Assembly (NCBI GenBank): GCA_016223045.1
Contig: JACRPT010000111.1
Coordinates: 1-41,143 of the forward strand
DNA: 41,143 bases
Origin: Candidatus Eiseniibacteriota bacterium
GTDB lineage: Bacteria; Eisenbacteria; RBG-16-71-46
Direction of reading: 5' to 3'
Below, in pieces: positions 5,507-40,748 of this stretch. Numbering within the stretch: the first letter of the stretch is position 1; every line of letters starts with the position of its first letter. The notes beneath the pieces are model-generated. The model was not told the DNA's origin. It searched no databases and saw only the letters and a list, made by a program, of their open reading frames with translations. A program made the translations under genes and the position numbers.

Positions 5507-7936
5507 GTGCGATACATCGTCCCTCTGGTCGTCCTTGTCCTGGCCGCGCAGCCTGCCGGCCTCGCCCACGCCGCCTGGCCGAATGACCCCGCCAGCGGCA
5601 ACGTCGCCCTGTGCACGGCGGGCTACGCACAGGTCGAGCCCAGGGTCGTGGCCGACGGCGCCGGCGGCGCCATCGTCACCTGGACCGACAGCCGCGGGGC
5701 GACATCCGACATCTACGTGCAGCGGGTCAGCGCCACGGGCGTGCCGCAGTGGACCGCCGACGGCGTCGCCCTGTGCACTGCCGCGGGGGATCAGTCGTCT
5801 GCCACGATCGCGTCCGACGGCGCCGGCGGCTCCATCGTCACCTGGACCGATGGCCGGGGGGCGAGCTACGACATCTACGCGCAGAGAGTCAATGCCGCGG
5901 GCGTGCCGCAGTGGACCGCCAACGGCGTCGCCCTGTGCACCGCCACGGGCACCCAGGCGTTCTCTACGGTCGTCGCGGACGGCGGCGGCGGCGCCATCGT
6001 CACCTGGGAGGACGCCCGCGGCGGGGCGACCTGGGACGTCTACGCGCAGCGGGTCAGCGCCGCGGGTGCGCCGCAGTGGACCGCCAACGGCGTCGCCCTG
6101 TGCACCGCCACGAACGACCAGACCTACCCGGTCATCGCCTCCGACGGCGCCGGCGGCGCCGTCGTCACCTGGACGGATCTCCGCGGCGGGGTCACCACGG
6201 ACATCTACGTGCAGCGGATCAGCGCCGCGGGCGCGACGCAATGGGGCGCCAACGGCGCCATCCTCTGCAACGCCGCGAACGGCCAGGCCGCCCCCGCCAT
6301 CACGCCCGACGGCGTCGGCGGTGCCATCGTCGCCTGGACGGACTATCGCAGCGGGACGAACAACGACATCTACGCGCAGCGGATCAGCGCCGCGGGCACG
6401 GTGCAATGGACCGCGAACGGCGCCGCACTCTGCACCGCCGCGGGCAATCAGGTCGCGCCCACGATCACCTCCGATGGGTCCGGCGGTGCCATCGTCACCT
6501 GGTCGGACTACCGCAGCGGGACGAACTACGACATCTACGCGCAGCGGATTGGCGCCTCCGGCGCGTCGCAATGGACCGCCGACGGCGTCAGCCTCTGCAC
6601 CGCCGCGAACGATCAGGCCGCGCCGACGATCACATCGGACGGGGCCGGCGGCGCCATCGTGACCTGGTACGACTACCGCAGCGGGGTGGGCAACGACATC
6701 TACGCGCAGCGGGTCGGCGCCGCGGGCGGGCGCCAGTGGGCCGCCGACGGCGCCGCCATCTGCACCGCTGCGGGCAGCCAGTACTACCCCATGATCGTTC
6801 CCGACGGCGGGGCACCCACCGGAGGTGGGTCCGGGGCCATCATCGTCTGGCAGGACAACCGCAACGGGCCGAGCGCCGACATCTACGCGCAGCGGATCGA
6901 GCGATACGGCTACCTGGGCAACCCCGAGCCGGTCATCGCCGGAGTGAGCGACTATCCCAACGATCAGGGCGGCAAGGTGCGCGTGAGCTGGAGCGCCAGC
7001 TACCTGGACGCCGAGCCCTACAGCGTGGTCGGCAGCTACCTGCTCTGGCGCCAGGCGCCGGCGCTGGTGGCCGAGGCCGCGCTGCGCGCGGGCGCGCGGC
7101 TGGTGGGAGAGGGCGAGGAGCCCGCCGCCGGCGGGCGCGCCTTCCGTGCCGCGGTCTCGGGCGCGCAGACCTACTACTGGGAGTACGTGACCTCGCAGAT
7201 CGCCCAGGGGTTCCCGGGATACAGCCTCGTCACCTCGACCGGATCCGACTCGGTCGCCGGATCGAACCCGTACACGCTGTTCATGGTCGAAGCGAAGCAC
7301 GGCACCGCGACCTCGCACTGGGACTCCGCGCCCGACAGCGGCTACTCGGTGGACGACCTGCCGCCGGCATCCCCGGCGCCGTTCACCGGCACGTACTCGG
7401 CAGGCACCGCGACGCTGTTCTGGAGCCCGAGTCCCGAGGCGGACTTCTACCTCTACCGCCTCTACCGCGGCACCTCGGCGGGCTTCGTGCCCGGCCCCGG
7501 CAACCTGGTCGTCCAGAAGCCCGACCCGGGCTACGCCGACGCCGCAGGCGCGCCGTACTACTACAAGCTCTCGGCGATGGACGTGCACGGCAACGAGAGC
7601 GGATTCACCACGCTGCTTCCGGAAGGGACGGTGGATGTTCCCGGCGGCGCGGCCCCCGCGGAGCTGGTGCTCGCGGCGCCCTCGCCGAACCCCGCGCGCT
7701 CGGAGACGGCGATCCGGTTCGACCTGCCGCGTGTGGCGCGCGTGCGTCTCGCGGTGTACGACGCCGCCGGGCGGCGGGTGCGGCTGCTGCGCGACGGCGC
7801 GCTCGAGGCGGGCACGCACCGCGCGGCCTTCGCGCTGCGGGACGATGCGGGCCGCGCGCTGGCGAGCGGGCTCTACGTGGTGCGGCTCGAGGCCGGGGAC
7901 CGGGTGCTCACGCGGAGGCTGATCGCTGTGCGGTAG
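5507..7936 (+). CDS. Secreted repeat protein with FlgD-Ig-like C-terminal domain
   Basis: A 809-aa exported protein. GTG at 5507 is preceded by GGAGAGGAG and opens a signal peptide (R-Y-I-V-P-L-V-V-L-V-L-A-A ending A-H-A). Residues about 30-465 are eight units of about 54 residues, each with an L-C-T-A start, a D-G-x-G-G-A-I-V-T-W core and D-I-Y-A-Q-R near the end. Fibronectin-like segments follow. The last ~90 residues hold S-P-N-P, V-Y-D-A-A-G-R-R-V and S-G-L-Y-V-V-R-L, as in FlgD-Ig / C-terminal sorting-type domains of FCB-like bacteria. The eighth unit has a family-1 palindrome in frame (G-G-A-P-T-G-G-G-S-G, near residue 436). Function unknown; surface attachment or export by a type-IX-like route is inference. 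Confidence 0.85.
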   Translation: MRYIVPLVVLVLAAQPAGLAHAAWPNDPASGNVALCTAGYAQVEPRVVADGAGGAIVTWTDSRGATSDIYVQRVSATGVPQWTADGVALCTAAGDQSSATIASDGAGGSIVTWTDGRGASYDIYAQRVNAAGVPQWTANGVALCTATGTQAFSTVVADGGGGAIVTWEDARGGATWDVYAQRVSAAGAPQWTANGVALCTATNDQTYPVIASDGAGGAVVTWTDLRGGVTTDIYVQRISAAGATQWGANGAILCNAANGQAAPAITPDGVGGAIVAWTDYRSGTNNDIYAQRISAAGTVQWTANGAALCTAAGNQVAPTITSDGSGGAIVTWSDYRSGTNYDIYAQRIGASGASQWTADGVSLCTAANDQAAPTITSDGAGGAIVTWYDYRSGVGNDIYAQRVGAAGGRQWAADGAAICTAAGSQYYPMIVPDGGAPTGGGSGAIIVWQDNRNGPSADIYAQRIERYGYLGNPEPVIAGVSDYPNDQGGKVRVSWSASYLDAEPYSVVGSYLLWRQAPALVAEAALRAGARLVGEGEEPAAGGRAFRAAVSGAQTYYWEYVTSQIAQGFPGYSLVTSTGSDSVAGSNPYTLFMVEAKHGTATSHWDSAPDSGYSVDDLPPASPAPFTGTYSAGTATLFWSPSPEADFYLYRLYRGTSAGFVPGPGNLVVQKPDPGYADAAGAPYYYKLSAMDVHGNESGFTTLLPEGTVDVPGGAAPAELVLAAPSPNPARSETAIRFDLPRVARVRLAVYDAAGRRVRLLRDGALEAGTHRAAFALRDDAGRALASGLYVVRLEAGDRVLTRRLIAVR
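6809..6834 (+). repeat. Family-1 palindromic element, in frame in the secreted protein
   Basis: Core ACCCACC-GGA-GGTGGGT (6814-6830) inside a longer unit that starts GGGGC and ends CCGG. It adds the residues A-P-T-G-G-G-S-G between D-G-G and A-I-I-V-W, where the other repeat units of this protein have only D-G-x-G-G-A-I-V. The same 26 bases occur, inverted, in the convergent paralogue at 9143-9168. Confidence 0.75.
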
Positions 7937-8169: not shown

Positions 8170-10255
8170 TCACTTCACCACGCTCACCCGCGCGGTCTCG
8201 CTTGCGCCGTCCTGCGTGATCCGCAGGAAGTAGGCGCCGGGCTTGAGCGCAGCCGTGGACCCGAGGTCCACGGTGTGCGTGCCGGGGCCTTCGTCCACCG
8301 GGACCGAGCGTACGCGGCGGCCGGCGAGATCGAGCAGGTCGAGCGTCGCCGTGCTCCAGCCGGGGAGCGTGAGCCACACCGTGAGGCTCGCCAGTGCCGG
8401 GTTGGGGCGCGTGCCGTGCAGGACGAGCGCGGGCGGCGGCGGCACGGTGAGCGAGGTCTCGCCCCCGATCACGATGACGTCGCCGAGGAGGTAGCTCAGC
8501 CGGTAGTCGTAGCGGCGGCCCGGGAGCACGCCCGCGTCCTCGAACACGATCAGGCCGCGCGCGTCGGCGACCGCGTCCCCGGCGTCGGCCCAATCCCGGC
8601 CCGCTCCGCGCCGCTGGATGGTCGCGATCGTCACCACGCTGCCGGGATCGTGCCAGGTGAGCCGCACGCGCCCGACCTCGAGCTGGGTGCGCACCACCGA
8701 GAGCACCGCCGGCACGCGCGCATCGCCGAGGATGTGCTGGGCATAGATGTCGTAGCGGTTGGCGCCGTCCGGGATGTTGTCGCGCCCGTCCGACCAGGCG
8801 ACCACCGCGCCGCCCCCGCCATCGGGCGCCACCGTCGTCTCGCCCTGCCAGCCCGGCGCCTCGCACAGGACCAGGCCCTGAGCGGGCCATCCCGGCGCCG
8901 CGGCCCCTGCGCCGGTGACGCGCAGGGCGTACGCGTGCGCCGCGGAGTCACCCTGCCATTCGCTCCAGGTGATGATGGCGCCGCCCCCCGTGTCCGGGAC
9001 GGCCGACGCACCGGCCTGATACCCGGCGCTCGAGGTGATGGGAATACCGTCCGCCGCCCACGCGACCGTGCCGCCCGCGGTCACGCGCTGCATGAAGATC
9101 TGGCCGCGGTGGTCGCGGTAGTCCTGCCACACCGCGATCACGCCGGACCCACCTCCGGTGGGTGCCCCGCCGTCGGGCACGAGACCGGCGTGGTACTGCG
9201 CCTCGGGCGCGGTGCACGCCGCCACGCCCGCGCCGCTCCAGCCCGGCGCGAGCGCGCCCGAGCCGGTGACGTGCTGCACGTAGAGATTCGAGGCCTCGGT
9301 GTAGAACCCGCTCATGTCGTTCCAGGTGAGGAACGCGCCGCCCCCGCCGTCCGCGAGGAGCCGCGGATAGAGCTGCTGCGTCGTGCCGGTCGAGACGCGC
9401 GCGCCATCCGCGGCCCAGCCCGGAGCGATGGCCCCCGCCGCGGTGACGCGTTGCGCGTAGATGTCGAAGTCGGTGCCGCGCCGGTCGTGCCAGGCGACGA
9501 TGGCGCCGGACCCCGACCCGGCTTCGCCGGGTGCCCCGACCCGCGCTGGGCGCGGGTACCCCGGTGCCCCGCCGTCGCTCACGATGTCGGGGAATCCCTT
9601 CTCGCCGGGCGTGGTGCAGACCGCGAGCCCGTTCGCCGGCCAGCCGGCGGCGACCGCGCCCGCGCCGGTGAGGCGCTGCACGTAGATGTCGATCCCGGCG
9701 CGCCCGTCCTCCCAGGTCACGTGGACCCCGCCCGCTCCGTCGGGAGCGACGCGCGGATGGAGCTGGAGCCCCGGCGAGGCCGCGATGTCGGCCCCGTTCA
9801 CCGGCCATCCAGGCGCGATCGTCCCGCCCGCGGCGAGGTGCTGGACGAAGACCTTCGGCAGGCCGTTCGGCGTGCTCGCGTTCTCGCGCATGTCTTCCCA
9901 CGCGATGAATGCGCCGCCCCCGCCGTCGGGTGCGAGCGCGGGATCGAGCTGGCTCCCGATCGCGGTGCACACCGGCACGCCGTCCGCGGGCCAGCCGGGT
10001 GCGATGCGGCCGCCGAGCAGGATGCGCTGCGCGTGGAGGTCGGTAGTGGCCGTCCCGGGGGTCATCGTCTCCCACACGACGATGACACCGCCCCCGCCGT
10101 CCGCGATGCTCACCGGGTGGAGCTTCACGGGGGGCGCGGGAGAGCGGCACGCCGCAGGCGGTCCAGGTGGTGTCGAGCAGAGCACGCGCGTCGCACGCGG
10201 CAGCACCGGCCAGCAGCGCGGCGAGCGCGAGCTGGAGGGAGAGATGTCGCGGCAT
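8170..10255 (-). CDS. Second secreted repeat protein, frameshifted after the signal peptide
   Basis: Paralogue of the convergent gene: units with D-G-G-G-G, W-x-D-x-R and Q-R-V/H-V-T-G-A-G-A-x-A-P-G-W, then a C-terminal domain with R-P-N-P, L-D-L-L-D-L-A-G-R-R-V and P-G-A-Y-F-L-R-I, again FlgD-Ig-like. The best start is ATG at 10255 (AGGAGG upstream), giving the signal peptide L-S-L-Q-L-A-L-A-A-L-L-A-G-A. That frame leaves the repeat frame at a C6 run (G6 on the plus strand, 10129-10134). With five Cs the protein would read straight through R-A-P-V-K-L-H-P-V. As sequenced, the long frame (8170-10206) has no signal peptide. It carries in-frame family-1 elements at 9143-9168 and 9506-9570. Confidence 0.75.
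9143..9168 (-). repeat. Family-1 palindromic element, in frame
   Basis: Exact reverse complement of the copy at 6809-6834, and therefore in the same sense orientation relative to its own gene. It encodes G-A-P-T-G-G-G-S-G within a repeat unit of the secreted protein. Confidence 0.75.
9506..9570 (-). repeat. Family-1 compound element (two hairpins), in frame
   Basis: Two adjacent hairpins, ACCCGGC-TTC-GCCGGGT and ACCCGCGC-TGG-GCGCGGGT, each linked to a GTGCCCC or GTACCCC tail as in the other copies. On the coding strand it adds about 20 residues (G-A-P-G-Y-P-R-P-A-R-V-G-A-P-G-E-A-G-S-G) between D-G and A-I-V-A-W. Confidence 0.65.
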
Positions 10256-11599: not shown

Positions 11600-11751
11600 G
11601 CCGTGTCCGAGAACTCGCCGATGGCTGGGCCCGGCCCCACCTTCGGTGGGTGCCCCGGCGGGTGCCCACGCGGTCGGAGGCACCGCTGCCCGAAGGGCGG
11701 TGGTCCCGCTCGCCCGCCACGCCTTGCCCTCGATGAGTTCTCAGACACGGC
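11600..11751. mobile_element. Candidate MITE with 17-bp terminal inverted repeats
   Basis: GCCGTGTCCGAGAACTC (11600-11616) and GAGTTCTCAGACACGGC (11735-11751) are inverted repeats with one mismatch, enclosing 118 bp with no gene. The interior includes a family-1 palindrome. The right end touches the stop codon of the DUF6600-like gene; the left end is 23 bp from the queG start. No clear target duplication is visible. The size and structure fit a miniature inverted-repeat transposable element, but an operator or bidirectional terminator cannot be excluded. Confidence 0.5.
11631..11667 (+). repeat. Family-1 palindromic element inside the candidate MITE
   Basis: CCCACC-TTC-GGTGGG core followed by TGCCCCGG and a second partial GGGTGCCC. 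This is an intergenic copy, so the family is not confined to genes. Confidence 0.65.
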
Positions 11752-15540: not shown

Positions 15541-15690
15541 GGGGAAGGAGCGCGACGGAGGCGCCCGCCCGACACCGGCACTCGCGGTCGGCGGCGGGCG
15601 GCAAGGCTTTTCGCTTCGAAGCAGCGAAAGGAGCTTGCCGTCGCAAGCAACCGCCGCGGGGGAAGGAGCGCGACGACGGCACCCGCCCGG
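15541..15690 (+). repeat. Family-2 hairpin repeat, copy A, with an adjoining fragment
   Basis: From CACCGGCACTCGCGG (about 15573) to GGGGGAAGGAGCGCGAC (about 15674), with an inner hairpin GGCAAG...CTTGCC (15600-15639) whose arms continue as TTTTCGC / GCGAAA. A second GGGGAAGGAGCGCGAC fragment at 15541 shows a truncated neighbour copy. It lies upstream of the ferredoxin gene and points in the same direction. Confidence 0.8.
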
Positions 15691-18209: not shown

Positions 18210-21200
18210 TCACGCCAGCGCCGTGACGCGCTCGGCGGCGAGCGTGACCGCGCCGAGCGTCTCGTCCACGCGGCCCTCGGCGCGCACCACCTGCGCGCGC
18301 ACCGCCGGCGCGCACGCGCGGTAGGCGTCGGGGAAGAGCGCGCACTCGGCGAGTCCGGTCCGGTCGGCGAGCGTCAGGAACAGCATCGTGCCGCCGCTCC
18401 TGGTCTCGACGCGGCGGTGGGCGCACGGCAGGCCCGCGATCGTGACACGGCGCCCGGCGTGCGCGGCGAGCTCCGCGGCCGGTGTCGCGCCGGCGAGCGC
18501 GGCGCGGTCCACCAGCACGTCGAGCGGGTGCGCGCTGAACCACAGTCCGGTGGCGCGGCACTCGCCGCGCACGCGCTCGGCCAGGTCGAACTCGGGCAGC
18601 TCGGGCACCGCCACGGGCGCGACCGGCTCGGGCGCGAGCGCGCTGCCGTCGGGCGCGACCAGCGCGGGCGGGCGCTCCCGCGCCGGCCGCCGGAGCCGCT
18701 CAGGCGCGCGCGTGCCCGGCCCGCCGCCCGCCGCGACGCGCGCCTCGAGCAGCAGCGAGGGGCGCGAGCGCCCGGTCCAGTCGAGCGCGCCCGCGAGGAC
18801 CAGCGACTCGACTTCGGGGAGCGCGGGACGCACGCGGTCCCCGAGGTCGGCGAGGTTGCGGAACGGGCGGGACGCGCGCTCCGCCATGATGCGCGCGCCG
18901 GTCGCGGCTGCGAGCCCGAACACGCGTCCGAGCCCGACGCGGACGGCGGCGCGAAGGATCTCTCCCCGCCGCTCTCCGCTGCGGACGACTTCCAGCGTCG
19001 TGTCCCACGCCGAGCGGTTCACGCACGGCGGCAGGAACGTGACGCCGGACCCGCACCCGGACCCGGACCCGGACCCCCCTTCGGTGGGTGCCCCGGTGGG
19101 TGCCCCGGCGGTCGCCCGGCGGTCGCCCCGCCTCAGGTCCTCGACGTGCACCCAGGTCGGGTACATGCCGGCGTGGTGGTTGAGGATCACGACCGCCCAC
19201 TCGGTGGGGAAGCGCGCCTTGAGATATGCGCTCTGCCAGCCGAGCGTGCCGTATCCCGCGGCGTGCGCCTTGCAGAAGGCGTAGGCCGCGAAGCGCGCGA
19301 GGTCGCGCCACACCGCGCGCGCGGTGTCCGGGGTCACGCCGCGGCGGGCGGCCAGGCCGACGAAGCCGCGCTCGAGCGCGCGGAACTCCTCGTCGTCGCG
19401 CGCCGCGGCGATGGCGCGGCGCAGGTCGTCGCCCTCGGCGAGCGAAAGCCCGGCGAGCGGCGCGGCCACGCGCATCACGTCCTCCTCGTAGAGGAGGAGT
19501 CCGTGGGTCTCGCGCAGCACCGGCTCGAGCGACGGATGGAGGAAGGCGGCCGGCTCGAGCCCGCGGTGGCGGCGGCAGAACAACTCCTTCAGGCTGGACC
19601 CACCCTCCGTGGGTGCCCCGGCCGGGCCGGGGCGCACGAGCGCGACGGCCGCGATGGTGTCGTCGAGCGTCCTCACGTCGAGCATGCGCAGCAGGTGGCG
19701 CATCGCGGGCGACTCGAGCTGGAAGCAGTTGAGCGTGTCGCCGGAGGAGACGCGCGCCGCGGTGAGCGGGTCGGGATCGGGGAGATGGTCGAGGTCCGGC
19801 ACGGCATCGCGCATGTCCGTCCCGCAGCCGTTCGCCGCGCCGGCTCCGCTGCCGGGGTCGTCCGCGCTGCGGCTGACCGTCGCGCGCACGCCGCCGCAGC
19901 GGGCCGGTGCCCGCCGCGCCAGCTCGATGCACTCGCCGATGGTGGTGAGCGCGCGGTTGCCGAGCAGGTCCATCTTGACCAGCCCGATCCGTTCGATCGC
20001 CCGCATCTCGAACTGGGTGACCACCACGCCCTTGGTCGCCTCCTCCAGCGGCACGTAGTGCGTGAGCGGCCGGTCGGCGATGACGATGCCACCGCAGTGC
20101 ACCGACAGGTGCCGCGGCGCGCCGTCGAGCTGTCCGGCGAGGCGCAGCGCCTCGGCGAGCGGCGGCTCGCGCCAGCGCACCGCGCGCGACTCGGGCAGGC
20201 GCTCGAGCCGCTCCAGGTACGGCTTCTCCAGCTCGCGCGGGATGCGGCGCGCCAGCGCGTTGACGCGCGCGTTGGGCACGCCCAGGGCCTTCGCGGTCTC
20301 GCGGAACGCCGAGCGCGCGCCCAGCGTGGCGTGGGTGGAGATCATCGCCACGCGGTCGCGACCATAGGTCTCGTACACGTGCGCGATGACCTCGTCGCGG
20401 CGTTTCCAGCACAGGTCGATGTCGAGGTCGGGGCAGTCGCGCCGCGACGGGTGCAGAAAGCGCTCGAAGTAGAGCCCGTAGCGCAGCGGGTCCACGTTCG
20501 TGATGCCGAGCACGTACGCGACGATGGAGCCCGCGCCCGAGCCGCGTCCCACGGTGGGGATGCCGCGCGAGCGCGCGAAGCCGACGATCTCGGCGACCAG
20601 CAGGAAGTAGTCGGTGAAGCCGAGCCGCTCGATGATCGCCAGCTCGTCGGAGAGCCGCGCCCGTGCGGCCCCGAGGCGGCTGCTCGCGCTCGCGGACGGC
20701 CGCTCACCGCCGCCGAAGCGGCGGCGGACGCCAGCCTCGCACAGCCGGCGCAGATGCGCCGGGCCGGTCGTCCCGGGCGGCAGCGGCGCGCGCGGGAAGA
20801 TGGGCACACCCAGCTCGATCTCGAGCCGGCAGCGCGCGGCCAGCTCGGCGTTGTTCGCGAGCGCCTCGTCGGCGGCCTCGGGCACGCCGGCGCCCGCGCA
20901 CACCGCGCGCACGCGGCGCTCCCACTCGGCGGGTGAGGCGAGCCACGCGTCGCGCGCGGCGAACGCCGCGGGCGGCATGCGCTCGAGCAGCTCGCCGGCC
21001 GCGGCGGTGACGGCGATGCGGTGCGCGTCCCGGTCGTGCGGGTGGAGCATCGCGCACTCGCCGGTGGCGACCAGTGGCACACGCAGGCGGTGCGCCGCGG
21101 CGACGCGCTCGCCCAGCGCCGCGCGCTCGGCGGGCAGCCCGCGCAGGCCCATCCACAATCCACCGGAGAGCCCGGCCGGGCGCGGGCCGTCGCGATGCGT

Positions 21201-21656
21201 TCCCCGCGCGGCGGGCACGCCGGCGGCGAGCAGCGCGGCGGCGAGGCCGGGCGATTCGACCACGACGTGGAGTCCGGCCCACGATCCGGCGACCGCGCGC
21301 ACCAGGTCGAAGTCGGGCTCGAGGTGGCGCGCGGTGAGCAGCGCGCACAGGTTCGCGTAGCCGCGGCGGTCGAGCGCGAGGAGCAGCGCGCCGGGACCGG
21401 CCCGTCCTGGCGCGCGATCCGCGCCGGCGTGCGCGTGCCCGCCCGGCGCGCTCAGCTCGGCGCCGAGGATGGGCGCGAGGCCCTCGGCGCGCGCCGCGCG
21501 ATAGAAGGCGATCGCGAGATAGAGGTTGTCGCGGTCGGTGAGCGCGAGCGCGGGGTAGCCGAGCTCGAGGGCGCGAGCGATCAGCGCGTCGGGCGACGCC
21601 GTGCCGTGGAGCAGCGAGCCGTGCGAGCGCACGCGAAGCGGGATGAACATCGTCAT
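18210..21656 (-). CDS. dnaE2: Error-prone DNA polymerase III alpha-like protein (DnaE2)
   Basis: 1148 aa. N-terminal PHP-like domain with a degenerate metal site (R-V-R-S-H-G where active PHP domains have H-x-H), then the PolIII palm with catalytic D410-L-D412-I-D414 in D-C-P-D-L-D-I-D-L, G-R-G-S-G-A-G-S-I-V-A-Y, C-F-Q-L-E-S-P-A-M-R and C-terminal OB-type domain. Last gene of a mutagenesis operon with DinB, so translesion synthesis is the likely role. ATG 21656 was chosen because AAGGAG precedes it; the frame upstream is family-2 repeat. Two family-1 elements add linkers near residues 676-687 (P-A-G-A-P-T-E-G-G-S) and 849-871 (G-A-P-T twice plus Gly/Ser pairs). Another lineage-specific insert (R-S-A-D-D-P-G-S-G-A-G region) lies near residue 600. 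Confidence 0.88.
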   Translation of the reverse strand: MTMFIPLRVRSHGSLLHGTASPDALIARALELGYPALALTDRDNLYLAIAFYRAARAEGLAPILGAELSAPGGHAHAGADRAPGRAGPGALLLALDRRGYANLCALLTARHLEPDFDLVRAVAGSWAGLHVVVESPGLAAALLAAGVPAARGTHRDGPRPAGLSGGLWMGLRGLPAERAALGERVAAAHRLRVPLVATGECAMLHPHDRDAHRIAVTAAAGELLERMPPAAFAARDAWLASPAEWERRVRAVCAGAGVPEAADEALANNAELAARCRLEIELGVPIFPRAPLPPGTTGPAHLRRLCEAGVRRRFGGGERPSASASSRLGAARARLSDELAIIERLGFTDYFLLVAEIVGFARSRGIPTVGRGSGAGSIVAYVLGITNVDPLRYGLYFERFLHPSRRDCPDLDIDLCWKRRDEVIAHVYETYGRDRVAMISTHATLGARSAFRETAKALGVPNARVNALARRIPRELEKPYLERLERLPESRAVRWREPPLAEALRLAGQLDGAPRHLSVHCGGIVIADRPLTHYVPLEEATKGVVVTQFEMRAIERIGLVKMDLLGNRALTTIGECIELARRAPARCGGVRATVSRSADDPGSGAGAANGCGTDMRDAVPDLDHLPDPDPLTAARVSSGDTLNCFQLESPAMRHLLRMLDVRTLDDTIAAVALVRPGPAGAPTEGGSSLKELFCRRHRGLEPAAFLHPSLEPVLRETHGLLLYEEDVMRVAAPLAGLSLAEGDDLRRAIAAARDDEEFRALERGFVGLAARRGVTPDTARAVWRDLARFAAYAFCKAHAAGYGTLGWQSAYLKARFPTEWAVVILNHHAGMYPTWVHVEDLRRGDRRATAGAPTGAPTEGGSGSGSGCGSGVTFLPPCVNRSAWDTTLEVVRSGERRGEILRAAVRVGLGRVFGLAAATGARIMAERASRPFRNLADLGDRVRPALPEVESLVLAGALDWTGRSRPSLLLEARVAAGGGPGTRAPERLRRPARERPPALVAPDGSALAPEPVAPVAVPELPEFDLAERVRGECRATGLWFSAHPLDVLVDRAALAGATPAAELAAHAGRRVTIAGLPCAHRRVETRSGGTMLFLTLADRTGLAECALFPDAYRACAPAVRAQVVRAEGRVDETLGAVTLAAERVTALA
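19044..19110 (-). repeat. Family-1 compound element, in frame in dnaE2
   Basis: On the coding strand two GGGGCACCCACC blocks, a GAAGGGGGGTCC block and four GGGTCC-type hexamers in a row. It encodes G-A-P-T-G-A-P-T-E-G-G-S-G-S-G-S-G and sits between the polymerase fingers region and the C-terminal domains. Confidence 0.7.
19596..19628 (-). repeat. Family-1 palindromic element, in frame in dnaE2
   Basis: Plus-strand core ACCCACC-CTCC-GTGGGT with a GCCCCGG tail. On the coding strand it reads A-G-A-P-T-E-G-G-S-S between V-R-P-G-P and L-K-E-L-F, where related polymerases have a short loop. Confidence 0.75.
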
Positions 21657-21662
21657 GTCGTG

Positions 21663-21890
21663 CTCCTTCCCCCGCGGCGGCTGCTTGCGGCGGCAAGCTC
21701 TTTTCGCCGCTTCGCAGCGAAAAGCCTTGCCGCCCGCTGCCGGCCGCGAGTGCCGGTGGCGGGCGGGTGCCTCGGTCGTGCTCCTTCCCCCGCGGCGGCT
21801 GCTTTCCTCGGCAAGCTCTTTTCGCCGTTTCGCAGCGAAGAGCCTTGCCTCGCGCCGCCGGCCGCGAGTGCCGGTGGCGAGCACCCCCGG
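21663..21890 (-). repeat. Family-2 hairpin repeat, copies B and C in tandem
   Basis: Two direct copies, 21663-21780 and 21781-21890, fill most of the 245-bp gap between dinB and dnaE2. Period 118 bp, not a multiple of three. Each has the hairpin arms GGCAAG(G)CTTTTCGC / GCGAAAAGAGCTTGCC on the minus strand. The end of the second copy on the transcript, GGGGGAAGGAGC, lies 6 nt before the dnaE2 ATG and acts as its Shine-Dalgarno. Confidence 0.85.
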
Positions 21891-21901
21891 ACCTCAACTC
21901 T

Positions 21902-23602
21902 TCACTTCGTCAGCGACGGGGTCCTCAGTACGAAGCCGTGCTCGTCCTCGTCGAGACGGCCCTTGAGATGCAGCGCGCGGCCGGAGACCAGGATGCCGTG
22001 GCCGAAGGCGCCGCGCACGCCGTCGAAGGCGCGGTAGAGCGCGGCGCGCCGCCCGGCCTCGCGCTCCTCGAACAGCGCGCCCTGCTCGCCGCCGCCGTGG
22101 ACGAAGCTGGAGAGCGCGAGCCCGACGTGATGGAGCGCGACGCGGCGGGTGAAGAGCCGCGCGAGCAGCTCGAGCGCGAGGCCGAGTACCACCGGGTCGG
22201 CGTCGGAGGGCTGGGCGAGCGTGCGCGCCTGCTCGGCGGACTCGCCGTCGGCGTAGCGCAGCCGCACCGATACGGTGCGCGGGCGGATGCCAAGCTCGCG
22301 CGCGGTGCGGCAGGCCCGGCCGGCGAGGTATTCGAGCATCCCTTCGATCTCGCGGTGGTCGGCGGTGTCGCGGTGGAACGAGGTCTCGCGCGAGATCGAG
22401 TGCGGGATCTCGCGCTCCGAGACCACCGCGGTGTCGCGGCCGCGGCAGCGCTCGTGGAGCAGGCGGCCGGGGGCGCCGAACAGGCGCTCGAGCGTCGCGA
22501 CGGGGAGGACGCGCATCTCGCCGGCGGTGCGGACGTTCATCGAGCGCAGCAGCTTCGCGTGCGCGTGGCCGACGCCGGCGATCTGCTCGACCGGGCGGTC
22601 GCGCATGAAGGCCTCGGCCTCGGCGGCGGTGACGCGCGCGAGACCGTCGGGCTTGACGGTCTTGCCGGCGAGCCTGGCGAGCATGCGGTTGGGGCCGAGC
22701 CCGCAGGTGACGGTGAGCCCGGTGGACGCGAGGATGGCGCGCTTGAGGCTGCGCGCGGCCTCGAGCAGGTCGCGATGCAGGCGCTCGGTGCCGGTGAGGT
22801 CGCAGTAGGCCTCGTCCAGGTAGGTCTCGACGGCGGGGGAGACCTCGCGGCAGCGCGCGAAGATCTGCTCGGCGAAGCAGCGGTAGACCTGGGCGTGACC
22901 CTCGACGATGACGGCCCGCGGGCAGAGGCGCCTCGCCTCGGAGAGCGGCATGCCGGCCTTGAGGCCGAAGCGCCGCGCCTCGTACGAGCACGACGCGATG
23001 ACGCCCGCACCGACGATGACGGGCCGGCCTCGGAGCCGCGGGTCGCGCTGCTGCTCGATCGAAGCGAAGAAGGCGTCGATGTCCACGTGGAGGATGGCGG
23101 GGGAGGCTGATCGGGCTCCTTCCCCCGCGGCGGCTGCTTGCGTCGGCAAGCTCTTTTCGCCGCTGCGCAGCGAAGAGCCTTGCCTCCCGCCGCCGGCCGC
23201 GAGTGCCGGTGGCGGGAGGGTGCCGCGTCGGGCTCGTTCCCCCGCGGCGGCTGCTTGCGTCGGCAAGCTCTTTTCGCCGCCGCGCAGCGAAGAGCCTTGC
23301 CTTCCGCCGCCGGCCGCGAGTGCCGGTGGCTCGCCCGCGCTCCATCGTTCCTCGGGGTGGGGCACGCCGGCGGACCCGAGCATCCCCGCGACGTCGGCGT
23401 CGGTCGTGACCCCATCCCCGAAGCTGGTTGCCGCCACCGCGGCGCGTGTCTCCGCCTCGGGTGCCTTCTGGTTCGTCGCGGAGGGGAGAGACGCGCGATG
23501 CGTCCCGCCCGGCGCCGCGGCGGTGGCAGCCAGGCCCGCCGGGAGCGCGGCGCCGGGAGCGCGCGTGACCGCCCCCGCGCCGGCCTGATCGCGGCCCGCC
23601 AT
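21902..23602 (-). CDS. dinB: DinB-type Y-family DNA polymerase with repeat-containing N-terminal extension
   Basis: 566 aa from ATG 23602. The polymerase core begins only near residue 171: I-L-H-V-D174-I-D176-A-F-F-A-S-I-E, then S-Y-E-A-R-R-F-G, T-Y-L-D-E-A-Y-C-D-L-T-G with the catalytic acidic pair, G-V-G-H-A-H-A-K thumb motif, and a C-terminal clamp-binding Q507-G-A-L-F. Start chosen because TGATG couples it to the stop of the 84-aa gene behind GGAGGGG; there is no ATG, GTG with a ribosome site, or TTG in a good context just before the core. Residues about 89-162 are two in-frame family-2 repeats. Role: translesion synthesis with the DnaE2-like polymerase. The missing Ser before L-D-E-A-Y is a minor oddity. 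Confidence 0.85.
   Translation of the reverse strand: MAGRDQAGAGAVTRAPGAALPAGLAATAAAPGGTHRASLPSATNQKAPEAETRAAVAATSFGDGVTTDADVAGMLGSAGVPHPEERWSAGEPPALAAGGGRQGSSLRGGEKSLPTQAAAAGERARRGTLPPPALAAGGGRQGSSLRSGEKSLPTQAAAAGEGARSASPAILHVDIDAFFASIEQQRDPRLRGRPVIVGAGVIASCSYEARRFGLKAGMPLSEARRLCPRAVIVEGHAQVYRCFAEQIFARCREVSPAVETYLDEAYCDLTGTERLHRDLLEAARSLKRAILASTGLTVTCGLGPNRMLARLAGKTVKPDGLARVTAAEAEAFMRDRPVEQIAGVGHAHAKLLRSMNVRTAGEMRVLPVATLERLFGAPGRLLHERCRGRDTAVVSEREIPHSISRETSFHRDTADHREIEGMLEYLAGRACRTARELGIRPRTVSVRLRYADGESAEQARTLAQPSDADPVVLGLALELLARLFTRRVALHHVGLALSSFVHGGGEQGALFEEREAGRRAALYRAFDGVRGAFGHGILVSGRALHLKGRLDEDEHGFVLRTPSLTK
23116..23336 (-). repeat. Family-2 hairpin repeat, copies D and E, in frame in dinB
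   Basis: Two direct copies starting at 23116 and 23233; the period of 117 bp is exactly 39 codons, so both are read in the same frame. Each encodes a peptide with P-A-L-A-A-G-G-G-R-Q-G-S-S-L-R and G-E-K-S-L-P-T-Q-A-A-A-A-G-E. The hairpin arms are conserved at the DNA level as in the intergenic copies. Confidence 0.85.
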
Positions 23603-23856
23603 CACCCCTCCAGCACCACGGAGTCCAGCCACCAGAGCATGTCGCCGCTCTGGAGCTGGAGCTGATAGACGTCGCCGGTTTCGACCGTCACCGAGAAGCA
23701 GAAGTGCGGGTGCCGCGGCACGCGGTCCACCCAGCGGGCGTTGACCCGCACCACGCGGTGCTCGCGCCCGCGCAGTCGGAACGCGACCGGGGTGACCGCG
23801 CCGCCCTGGAAGTCGGCGCGCACGGTGATGGCCTCATCAATGGCTTCCTGTCTCAT
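23602..23856 (-). CDS. 84-aa hypothetical protein, first gene of the dinB-dnaE2 operon
   Basis: 84 residues starting at ATG 23856 with M-R-Q-E-A-I-D-E-A-I. It contains F-R-L-R-G-R-E-H-R-V-V-R-V-N-A-R-W-V-D and F-S-V-T-V-E-T-G-D-V-Y-Q-L-Q-L, a compact all-beta-looking protein, and ends W-W-L-D-S-V-V-L-E-G. It resembles the small proteins (for example DUF6504-like) that sit beside translesion polymerases in other phyla; that match is from memory and uncertain. The stop overlaps the dinB start (TGATG). Its promoter holds a LexA-type palindrome, so it is probably DNA-damage induced. Confidence 0.75.
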   Translation of the reverse strand: MRQEAIDEAITVRADFQGGAVTPVAFRLRGREHRVVRVNARWVDRVPRHPHFCFSVTVETGDVYQLQLQSGDMLWWLDSVVLEG

Positions 23857-23874: not shown

Positions 23875-23903
23875 ACCATACTGCACATATGTGCAGGGTG
23901 CAA
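23875..23903 (-). promoter_or_regulatory. SOS-type promoter with LexA-like operator in the spacer
   Basis: Minus strand: -35 TTGCAC (23903-23898), a spacer of exactly 17 bp (23897-23881), -10 TATGGT (23880-23875). The perfect palindrome CTGCACATATGTGCAG (23881-23896) fills the spacer. Its core TGCAC-ATAT-GTGCA fits the TGCNC-N4-GTGCA LexA box reported for Fibrobacter succinogenes. A repressor bound here would block RNA polymerase directly. It drives the 84-aa gene, dinB and dnaE2. Confidence 0.8.
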
Positions 23904-23935
23904 GAGAGAACTTCGGGAGCCCCGCAGCCGGCGCG

Positions 23936-24095
23936 GCGCCGGGGTTGGCTGCGGCGCGCGGCCGAGATTGGCCGCAGCCTGGCGCCGGGGTTGGCCGTGG
24001 CGCGGCGTCGAGACTGGCTGTGGTGCGAGGGGCCGAGACCGGCTCCGGCCCGACGCCAGGATTGGCCGTAGCGCGGGACGGCCGGGCTGGGCTTA
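23936..24095 (+). repeat. Seven degenerate 23-bp direct repeats
   Basis: A TTGGC-centred word recurs at 23945, 23968, 23991, 24014, 24039, 24062 and 24087: spacings 23, 23, 23, 25, 23 and 25 bp. Units alternate between GCCGGGG-TTGGCCG and GCCGAGA-TTGGCCG types and share a trailing GGCGCG. They fill the gap between the SOS promoter and the first alpha/beta hydrolase gene; a TAGATT box (24094-24099) follows the last unit. Confidence 0.7.
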
Positions 24096-25011: not shown

Positions 25012-25112
25012 CGCGAGGCACTCGCGGCCGGCGCGGGGAGGCCAGGCTCTTCGCGGCGCAGCCGTGAAAAGAGCTTGCCGACCGCAAGCAGCCGCCGCGG
25101 GGGAAGGAGCGG
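25012..25112 (+). repeat. Family-2 hairpin repeat, copy F
   Basis: Runs from GGCACTCGCGG to GGGGGAAGGAGCGGGAC, with hairpin arms around CCAGGCTCTTCGCGG and GAAAAGAGCTTGCC. It lies between the two hydrolase genes and points along the downstream gene, 100 bp before its start. Confidence 0.8.
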
Positions 25113-25211
25113 GACAAGGCGCCGGTCTGCGCGGCCGGCGCTACAGTCTTCCCCGCGCTCCGCCGATAACTCCGGGGCGTCCCACCCAACCCCGGGACGC
25201 GGCGGGGTGGC

Positions 25212-40420: not shown

Positions 40421-40550
40421 AGGACTATTTCGCGCCCGCAACAGTTCCGAGCACGGCTGGCGCGGGCGAAACGTGGAGCATAATCCGGGCCGCGGCTGGC
40501 GCGGCTCGACGCGGGCTCGGCGCGCCGCCTCGCCGCGTCGGCGGTCGGGG

Positions 40551-40748
40551 CAGGAGCGCGCGGCCACGCCACCGCCCGCCACCCGCGCACGGCTGACCGA
40601 CAGGAGCGCGCGGCCACGCCATCGCCCGCCACCCGCGCACGGCTGACCGGCGGGAGCGCGCGGCCACGCCATCGCCCGCCGCGCGCGTACGGCGACCGGC
40701 AGGAGCGCGCGATCACGCCACCTCCCGCGGCCCGCATGCGGCCACCCG
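40551..40748. repeat. Four tandem copies of a 50-bp direct repeat
   Basis: Units begin at 40551, 40601, 40651 and 40700, each starting AGGAGCGCGCG (third CGGGAGCGCG) and continuing GCCACGCCATCGCCCGCC and GCGCACGGCTGACC. Copies diverge from left to right. No recognisable protein is encoded. Confidence 0.8.

Follow-up and report, generated by a model that had tools for sequence, protein, structure and literature searches.

A small, non-autonomous palindromic element has probably multiplied in one Candidatus Eisenbacteria-type bacterium and entered dinB and ybeY in frame, and the repeat is very probably translated within both proteins. The window, which is the whole stretch of DNA analysed here (41,143 nucleotides), is contig C86 of this genome (G000), a metagenome bin of 3.88 Mb. 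In the explanation that we propose, an element with a unit of about 117 nt and one long hairpin would have multiplied in this lineage. One copy would have entered the variable N-terminal extension of DinB without disrupting the frame, 3' of a structured RNA designated R2, and a local duplication of exactly 39 codons would have followed. A further copy would have inserted into the TDVLSF-GD loop of YbeY, again in frame. Ribosomes from the ATG coupled to the upstream DUF6504-like gene would read through R2 and both repeats, giving a DinB protein with an N-terminal tail.

Repeat units in dinB and their dispersed copies

The dinB open frame was located at 21902-23602 on the minus strand and encoded 566 aa with the Pfam domains IMS, IMS_C, and IMS_HHH_1. 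It was stop-free from the ATG at 23602, which lies within TGATG, through to the TGA at 21902, and GGAGG was present immediately 5' of this coupled ATG. The Y-family polymerase core, from ILHVDIDAFF to LRTPSLTK, was complete and formed the C-terminal end of the frame (21902-23095, minus strand). The DUF6504-like gene (23602-23856, minus strand; under the Pfam cut-off) was upstream, with its TGA overlapping the dinB ATG, and a dnaE-type polymerase III alpha gene (18210-21656, minus strand) was 3' of dinB. A LexA-like palindrome, CTGCACATATGTGCAG (23881-23896, minus strand), was positioned upstream of this DUF6504-dinB-dnaE operon. A similar box was observed directly 5' of dinB in G004. Degenerate 23- and 46-bp repeats were also observed at 23929-24066, in the interval between the divergent dinB operon and hydrolase gene.

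Two repeat units were found in the dinB frame on the minus strand. Unit 1 was located at 23112-23228 (hairpin 23112-23210), and its in-frame DinB reading was PALAAGGGRQGSSLRSGEKSLPTQAAAAGEGAR. Unit 2 was located at 23229-23344 (hairpin 23229-23327), in frame and 39 codons 5' of unit 1. This confirmed the initial annotation, which had placed two copies with a 117-bp period in the open frame between the coupled TGATG start and the polymerase core. It had also assigned a 118-bp period to the intergenic copies B (21659-21757) and C (21777-21875), and these were indeed found in tandem on the minus strand before dnaE, with starts at 21659 and 21777. The tail of copy B, GGAAGGAG, was 6 nt before the dnaE ATG (21656). 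Both periods were right, but the contrast between them was not diagnostic alone, since a tandem pair on contig C35 of G000 (19920/20037) also had a period of 117 and yet was located 5' of an ATG. In pairwise comparison, the dinB units were each other's closest copies (97% identity versus 94% for the next best), which showed that they are in-situ duplicates offset by exactly 39 codons. Pairwise identities likewise showed that the two units on contig C3 were in-situ duplicates of each other.

A search of G000 against itself identified 20 full copies at 15 places, with E values from 9e-10 to 6e-21. Two intergenic copies were on the plus strand of the window, at 15574-15672 and at 25014-25113, the latter flanked by two alpha/beta hydrolase genes. 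Three of the 20 copies were genic, and the remaining ones were nearly all intergenic according to a codon-usage gene model, whose calls are approximate. A covariance model search gave no copy in 38 relatives, and blastn gave no convincing match in phage or plasmid records. A single 40-base match was found in G007 (E 1.6e-4). A repeat common to the family, phages, or plasmids was rejected because convincing matches were absent.

The element was a 99-nt hairpin inside a 117-nt unit, and the consensus formed one hairpin from CUCGCGG to CCGCGGG. In this hairpin, 97.2% of the cells were paired and compensatory changes were present at three pairs. The covariation score was 0.113, compared to 0.070 ± 0.006 for shuffled alignments. 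GGCAC(T/C)C was found again at either end of most units, and no target duplication was readable, since the empty sites fall in variable loops. In the six-frame analysis, 14 of 19 copies were stop-free. This was rejected as a sign of selection, because 41% of shuffles were equally open and, at a GC content of 75%, stretches without stops arise often.

The hairpin is most likely a small mobile element. No Y1 transposase gene flanked by the repeat was found, and the contig with the one Y1_Tnp gene of G000 (C75) had no copy. A resident Y1 transposase as the mover was not supported, the gene being single-copy, lexA-linked, and also present in relatives without the repeat. As a separate observation, this single-copy, HUH transposase-like gene (L259, G000:C75, 1399-1890, and L260-L269) was directly 3' of lexA in 11 of 11 genomes checked. 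It was present in 19 of the 20 family genomes, and the LexA-like box of the G000 copy matched that of the dinB operon. It looks like a domesticated SOS-regulated protein.

Other repeats were observed in the window. Tandem coding repeats of 162-165 bp, of the GGAIVTWxDxR type, were present in two neighbouring opposite-strand genes (5602-6898 and 8781-10125), and the two arrays were mutually related through inverted matches. Another small motif, approximately CCCACCTTCGGTGGGTGCCCCG, was dispersed over four positions, 9129-9169, 11617-11657, 19055-19095, and 19580-19620. A tandem array with a 50-bp unit (3.8 copies, 89% matches) was located at 40549-40735.

In-frame insertion and the start of DinB

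The repeat was absent from the DinB of all relatives compared, whether the N-terminus was short or long. The initial annotation had held that the repeat invaded the gene and that the frame was kept, and had named an alignment with relatives as the check. When DinB was aligned in this way, the repeat segment was missing in the relatives. Together with the dispersal of the element in G000 only, this supported the invasion. The keeping of the frame was supported by the open dinB frame and, independently, by the copy in YbeY.

In the case of YbeY, the copy at C158:15278-15372 was in the middle of a 208-codon open reading frame, and the YbeY match (Pfam 4.5e-28) spanned the insert. The HGTLHLAGLDH motif was intact 3' of the insert, and this was the only full YbeY match in G000. 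The spacing from TDVLSF to GD was 74 residues, compared to 17-44 in the seven relatives measured. YbeY relatives of the family aligned in two pieces, leaving query residues ~73-130 unmatched, and the element was found in none of the aligned relatives. The loop is naturally variable, and ~24 more inserted residues here were not recognisable as repeat. An alternative start cannot account for this copy. It is outside the window and provides the decisive support for in-frame insertion. The repeat in dinB and in ybeY is very probably built into proteins by the cell. Genic insertions of a mobile hairpin most likely persist only if they preserve the reading frame and fall within a disordered tail or loop, and the insert itself may be neutral.

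The AlphaFold model gave no confident structure for DinB residues 1-165 (pLDDT about 26-34), partly because the alignment had no rows covering the extension. A confident polymerase fold began at about residue 170, with most of the core at pLDDT >85. In the proposed explanation, the N-terminal tail would span about 168 residues, some 78 of them derived from the repeat, and would be disordered. Predicted peptides that would mark the translated N-terminal part include QGSSLR and SLPTQAAAAGEGAR.

We listed the in-frame starts by the number of codons before LHVD: TTG 19, TTG 58, GTG 91, ATG 97, GTG 115, and ATG 170, the last being the coupled one. It had been claimed that no better start exists between the repeats and the core. 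This held in that no ATG, GTG, or TTG was present there before L-H-V-D, but two TTGs inside the repeats (TTG 19 and TTG 58) had been missed. No other in-frame start separates the upstream extension from the core, and DinB, if made at all, must therefore include some of the translated repeat.

DinB could be initiated at TTG 19, and most of the repeat would then be untranslated. The repeats would in that case be 5' untranslated regulatory hairpins, and the repeat leader would give the ribosome-binding tail GGGGGAAGGAG, a role that it also seems to have at dnaE. The purine tail of the element was indeed just 5' of an ATG in three places, namely dnaE (GGAAGGAG-CACGAC-ATG), ribBA on C36 (GGAAGGA-TTGCG-ATG), and a FAD-binding gene on C35 (GGGAAAGAACCCGCCG-ATG). 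However, the dinB tail had no start codon at a usable spacing, and TTG 19 was preceded merely by GAG, one base away. About 13 repeat codons would still be translated, and the ybeY copy, being in mid-domain, cannot be a leader. We consider this explanation unlikely.

A recruited function of the repeat-derived peptide or hairpin, such as a flexible tether or an RNA processing site, was weighed against mere tolerance. The duplication within dinB preserved the frame, and the coding copies retained hairpin pairing. However, the element was found in one genome only, and the reading frames differed between the two genes, with frame 2 in DinB (PALAAGGG...) and frame 1 in YbeY (TGTRGRRR...). The coding copies also folded worse relative to shuffles than the dnaE copy (z −1.65 and −1.45 versus −4.66). 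Recruitment appeared quite improbable, and a tolerated, translated insertion was preferred.

The R2 RNA and the DinB extension

R2 (23421-23532, minus strand) overlapped the dinB N-terminal extension in the segment 5' of the repeats. It formed a three-way junction with a long basal stem (P1) and two inner hairpins (P2 and P3). A second hairpin domain, of the GGCAUCGCGGGGAUGGCC type (23364-23403, minus strand), was 3' of R2; it was conserved in 10 genomes and degenerate here. R2 was present in 12 of the 20 family genomes, and the model recovered three more genomes beyond those that built it. Matches elsewhere among 146 genomes were weak (E 0.03 or worse). Double changes were observed at 16 of 32 pairs in nine sequences and at 17 of 32 in twelve. 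The covariation score was 0.415, compared to 0.137 ± 0.018 when shuffled and at most 0.075 when slid, and matches on the reverse strand scored far lower. CACGAAC and GGCACCCGUG were conserved as strings. No Rfam match for R2 reached the gathering score in the window, an E-value search of six R2 loci gave sub-threshold, unrelated matches only, and no description of R2 was found in the literature. These results suggested that R2 is a previously undescribed conserved RNA structure.

Five bases were lost together from both R2 stem arms in G019. In G011, each arm of one hairpin was longer by one base, and in G018 one base was lost. In all three genomes the peptide frame was broken but the structure was intact, which indicated that the RNA, not the peptide, was conserved. 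In the aligned extension DNA of nine genomes, pairing was strong and change was nearly equal across the three codon positions, so the extension peptide would be under little constraint. A conserved peptide before the repeats was rejected on both grounds. A dispersed leader segment was also rejected, because it was essentially single copy per genome.

R2 and dinB shared one open frame in all six genomes with R2 directly 5' of dinB. In G002, R2 stayed beside dinB though DUF6504 was located elsewhere. Other genes, TcmP- and DUF5131-like, were between R2 and dinB in G011, G015, G016, and G017. The genes observed in this interval (L030, L032, L037, L195) were named TcmP- and DUF5131 (Gp37/Gp68)-like by sequence motif. 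Cis-regulation of the SOS polymerase operon by R2 is the favoured reading, and R2 may act by sensing something or by pacing the ribosomes that translate through it. R2 resembled the structured cis-acting RNAs of Rfam in its compensatory changes, conserved strings, and fixed place before one operon. In contrast to them, it matched no family and was at least partly inside a translated region in several genomes. The leader of DinB might be dual-purpose, with R2 acting in cis while being translated as the N-terminus; its tolerance of insertions would have admitted the repeat and the in-frame duplication. We put this forward tentatively, as a possibility somewhat short of even.

The DinB of G012 begins MREG-TVLHVDID and that of G003 MMPAATDR-AVLHVDID, both at the coupled ATG, which 6-10 codons separate from the core. 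An ATG was found 4-12 codons before the core, behind other genes, in G015, G016, G017, and G004. In G001, G002, G006, G007, and G013, a long extension without the repeat was in frame with the core. The distance from the core to the nearest in-frame start was 18 codons in G002, 44 in G006, and 46 in G007, which argued that a translated extension predates the repeat. For G010, the nearest relative, the contig breaks off 53 nt before the core, and its extension was outside the comparison. These results suggested that the N-terminal extension, which overlaps a conserved RNA structure, was already present, variable, and translated when the repeat entered it.

It is very unlikely that the region before the core is wholly non-coding and that DinB begins at an unusual codon, ATC or the GTG of H-V-D. 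The segment holds a conserved RNA structure, a feature shared with untranslated regions. However, G006 and G007 were likewise without a near start, and R2 and dinB formed one open frame in six genomes. In addition, G003, G012, G016, G015, G017, and G004 had an ordinary ATG 4-12 codons before the core, and the tail GGAAGGAG was at least 20 bases from the ATC or GTG. An assembly artefact is hardly credible: short-read assembly may miscount tandem 117-nt units, and their number in this metagenome bin could be miscounted, but the units differed at 3% of sites and had unique flanks, ybeY held one copy only, which was in frame, and the bin was 97.6% complete with 0.02% contamination.

Comparison with known palindromic elements

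The initial annotation had likened the repeat to the Rickettsia palindromic elements (RPE). These elements are 105-146 bp long, form long stem-loops, and occur in frame within 19 protein genes (PMC2229807). Roughly half of the elements are genic, with a conserved peptide for each (PMC10969869). Enzyme function survived in the one case tested for RPE and the Wolbachia equivalent (PMC2229807, PMC10969869). Both are hairpins of 100-150 bp in intergenic regions and in frame inside conserved genes (PMC2229807, PMC10969869), and the element studied here was similar, with 20 copies of a 117-nt unit that contains a 99-nt hairpin, and in-frame copies in dinB and ybeY that were found in no relative. In contrast to RPE, it had 75% GC, belonged to an unrelated phylum, had 3 of 20 copies in genes, and was read in two frames, so that no conserved peptide frame was present. 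The likeness therefore held for behaviour and did not extend to membership. By analogy, the element would work like RPE without being classed as one, and the phylum and GC content make sequence kinship unlikely.

REP and the GTAG- or CGTC-tagged palindromes are also dispersed and tandem, with some in genes, often those of replication or repair (PMC3733652). The unit here was far longer than their 20-40 bp. GTAG was found in two and CGTC in six of the 20 copies with flanks, at no fixed end, and the contig with the tyrosine transposase gene (C75) was without the repeat, which differed from REP/RAYT systems. ERIC/RU-1, YPAL/RU-2, and the Correia MITEs are small hairpins with open frames fused to genes in frame (PMC2759123, PMC2229807). 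Those enterobacterial and Neisseria elements are from other phyla, and the long palindrome here had no demonstrable terminal TA or target duplication. No description of such repeats in Eisenbacteria was found in the literature.

Palindromic elements read in frame have been described mostly in Rickettsia, Wolbachia, and certain other proteobacteria. The phylum studied here is uncultured and GC-rich, and the genes concerned encode a repair polymerase and YbeY, which is widely conserved; this suggests that the process does not depend on intracellular genome decay. In addition, the position of R2 where the gene of an error-prone polymerase begins would make post-transcriptional control of SOS mutagenesis testable in this phylum.
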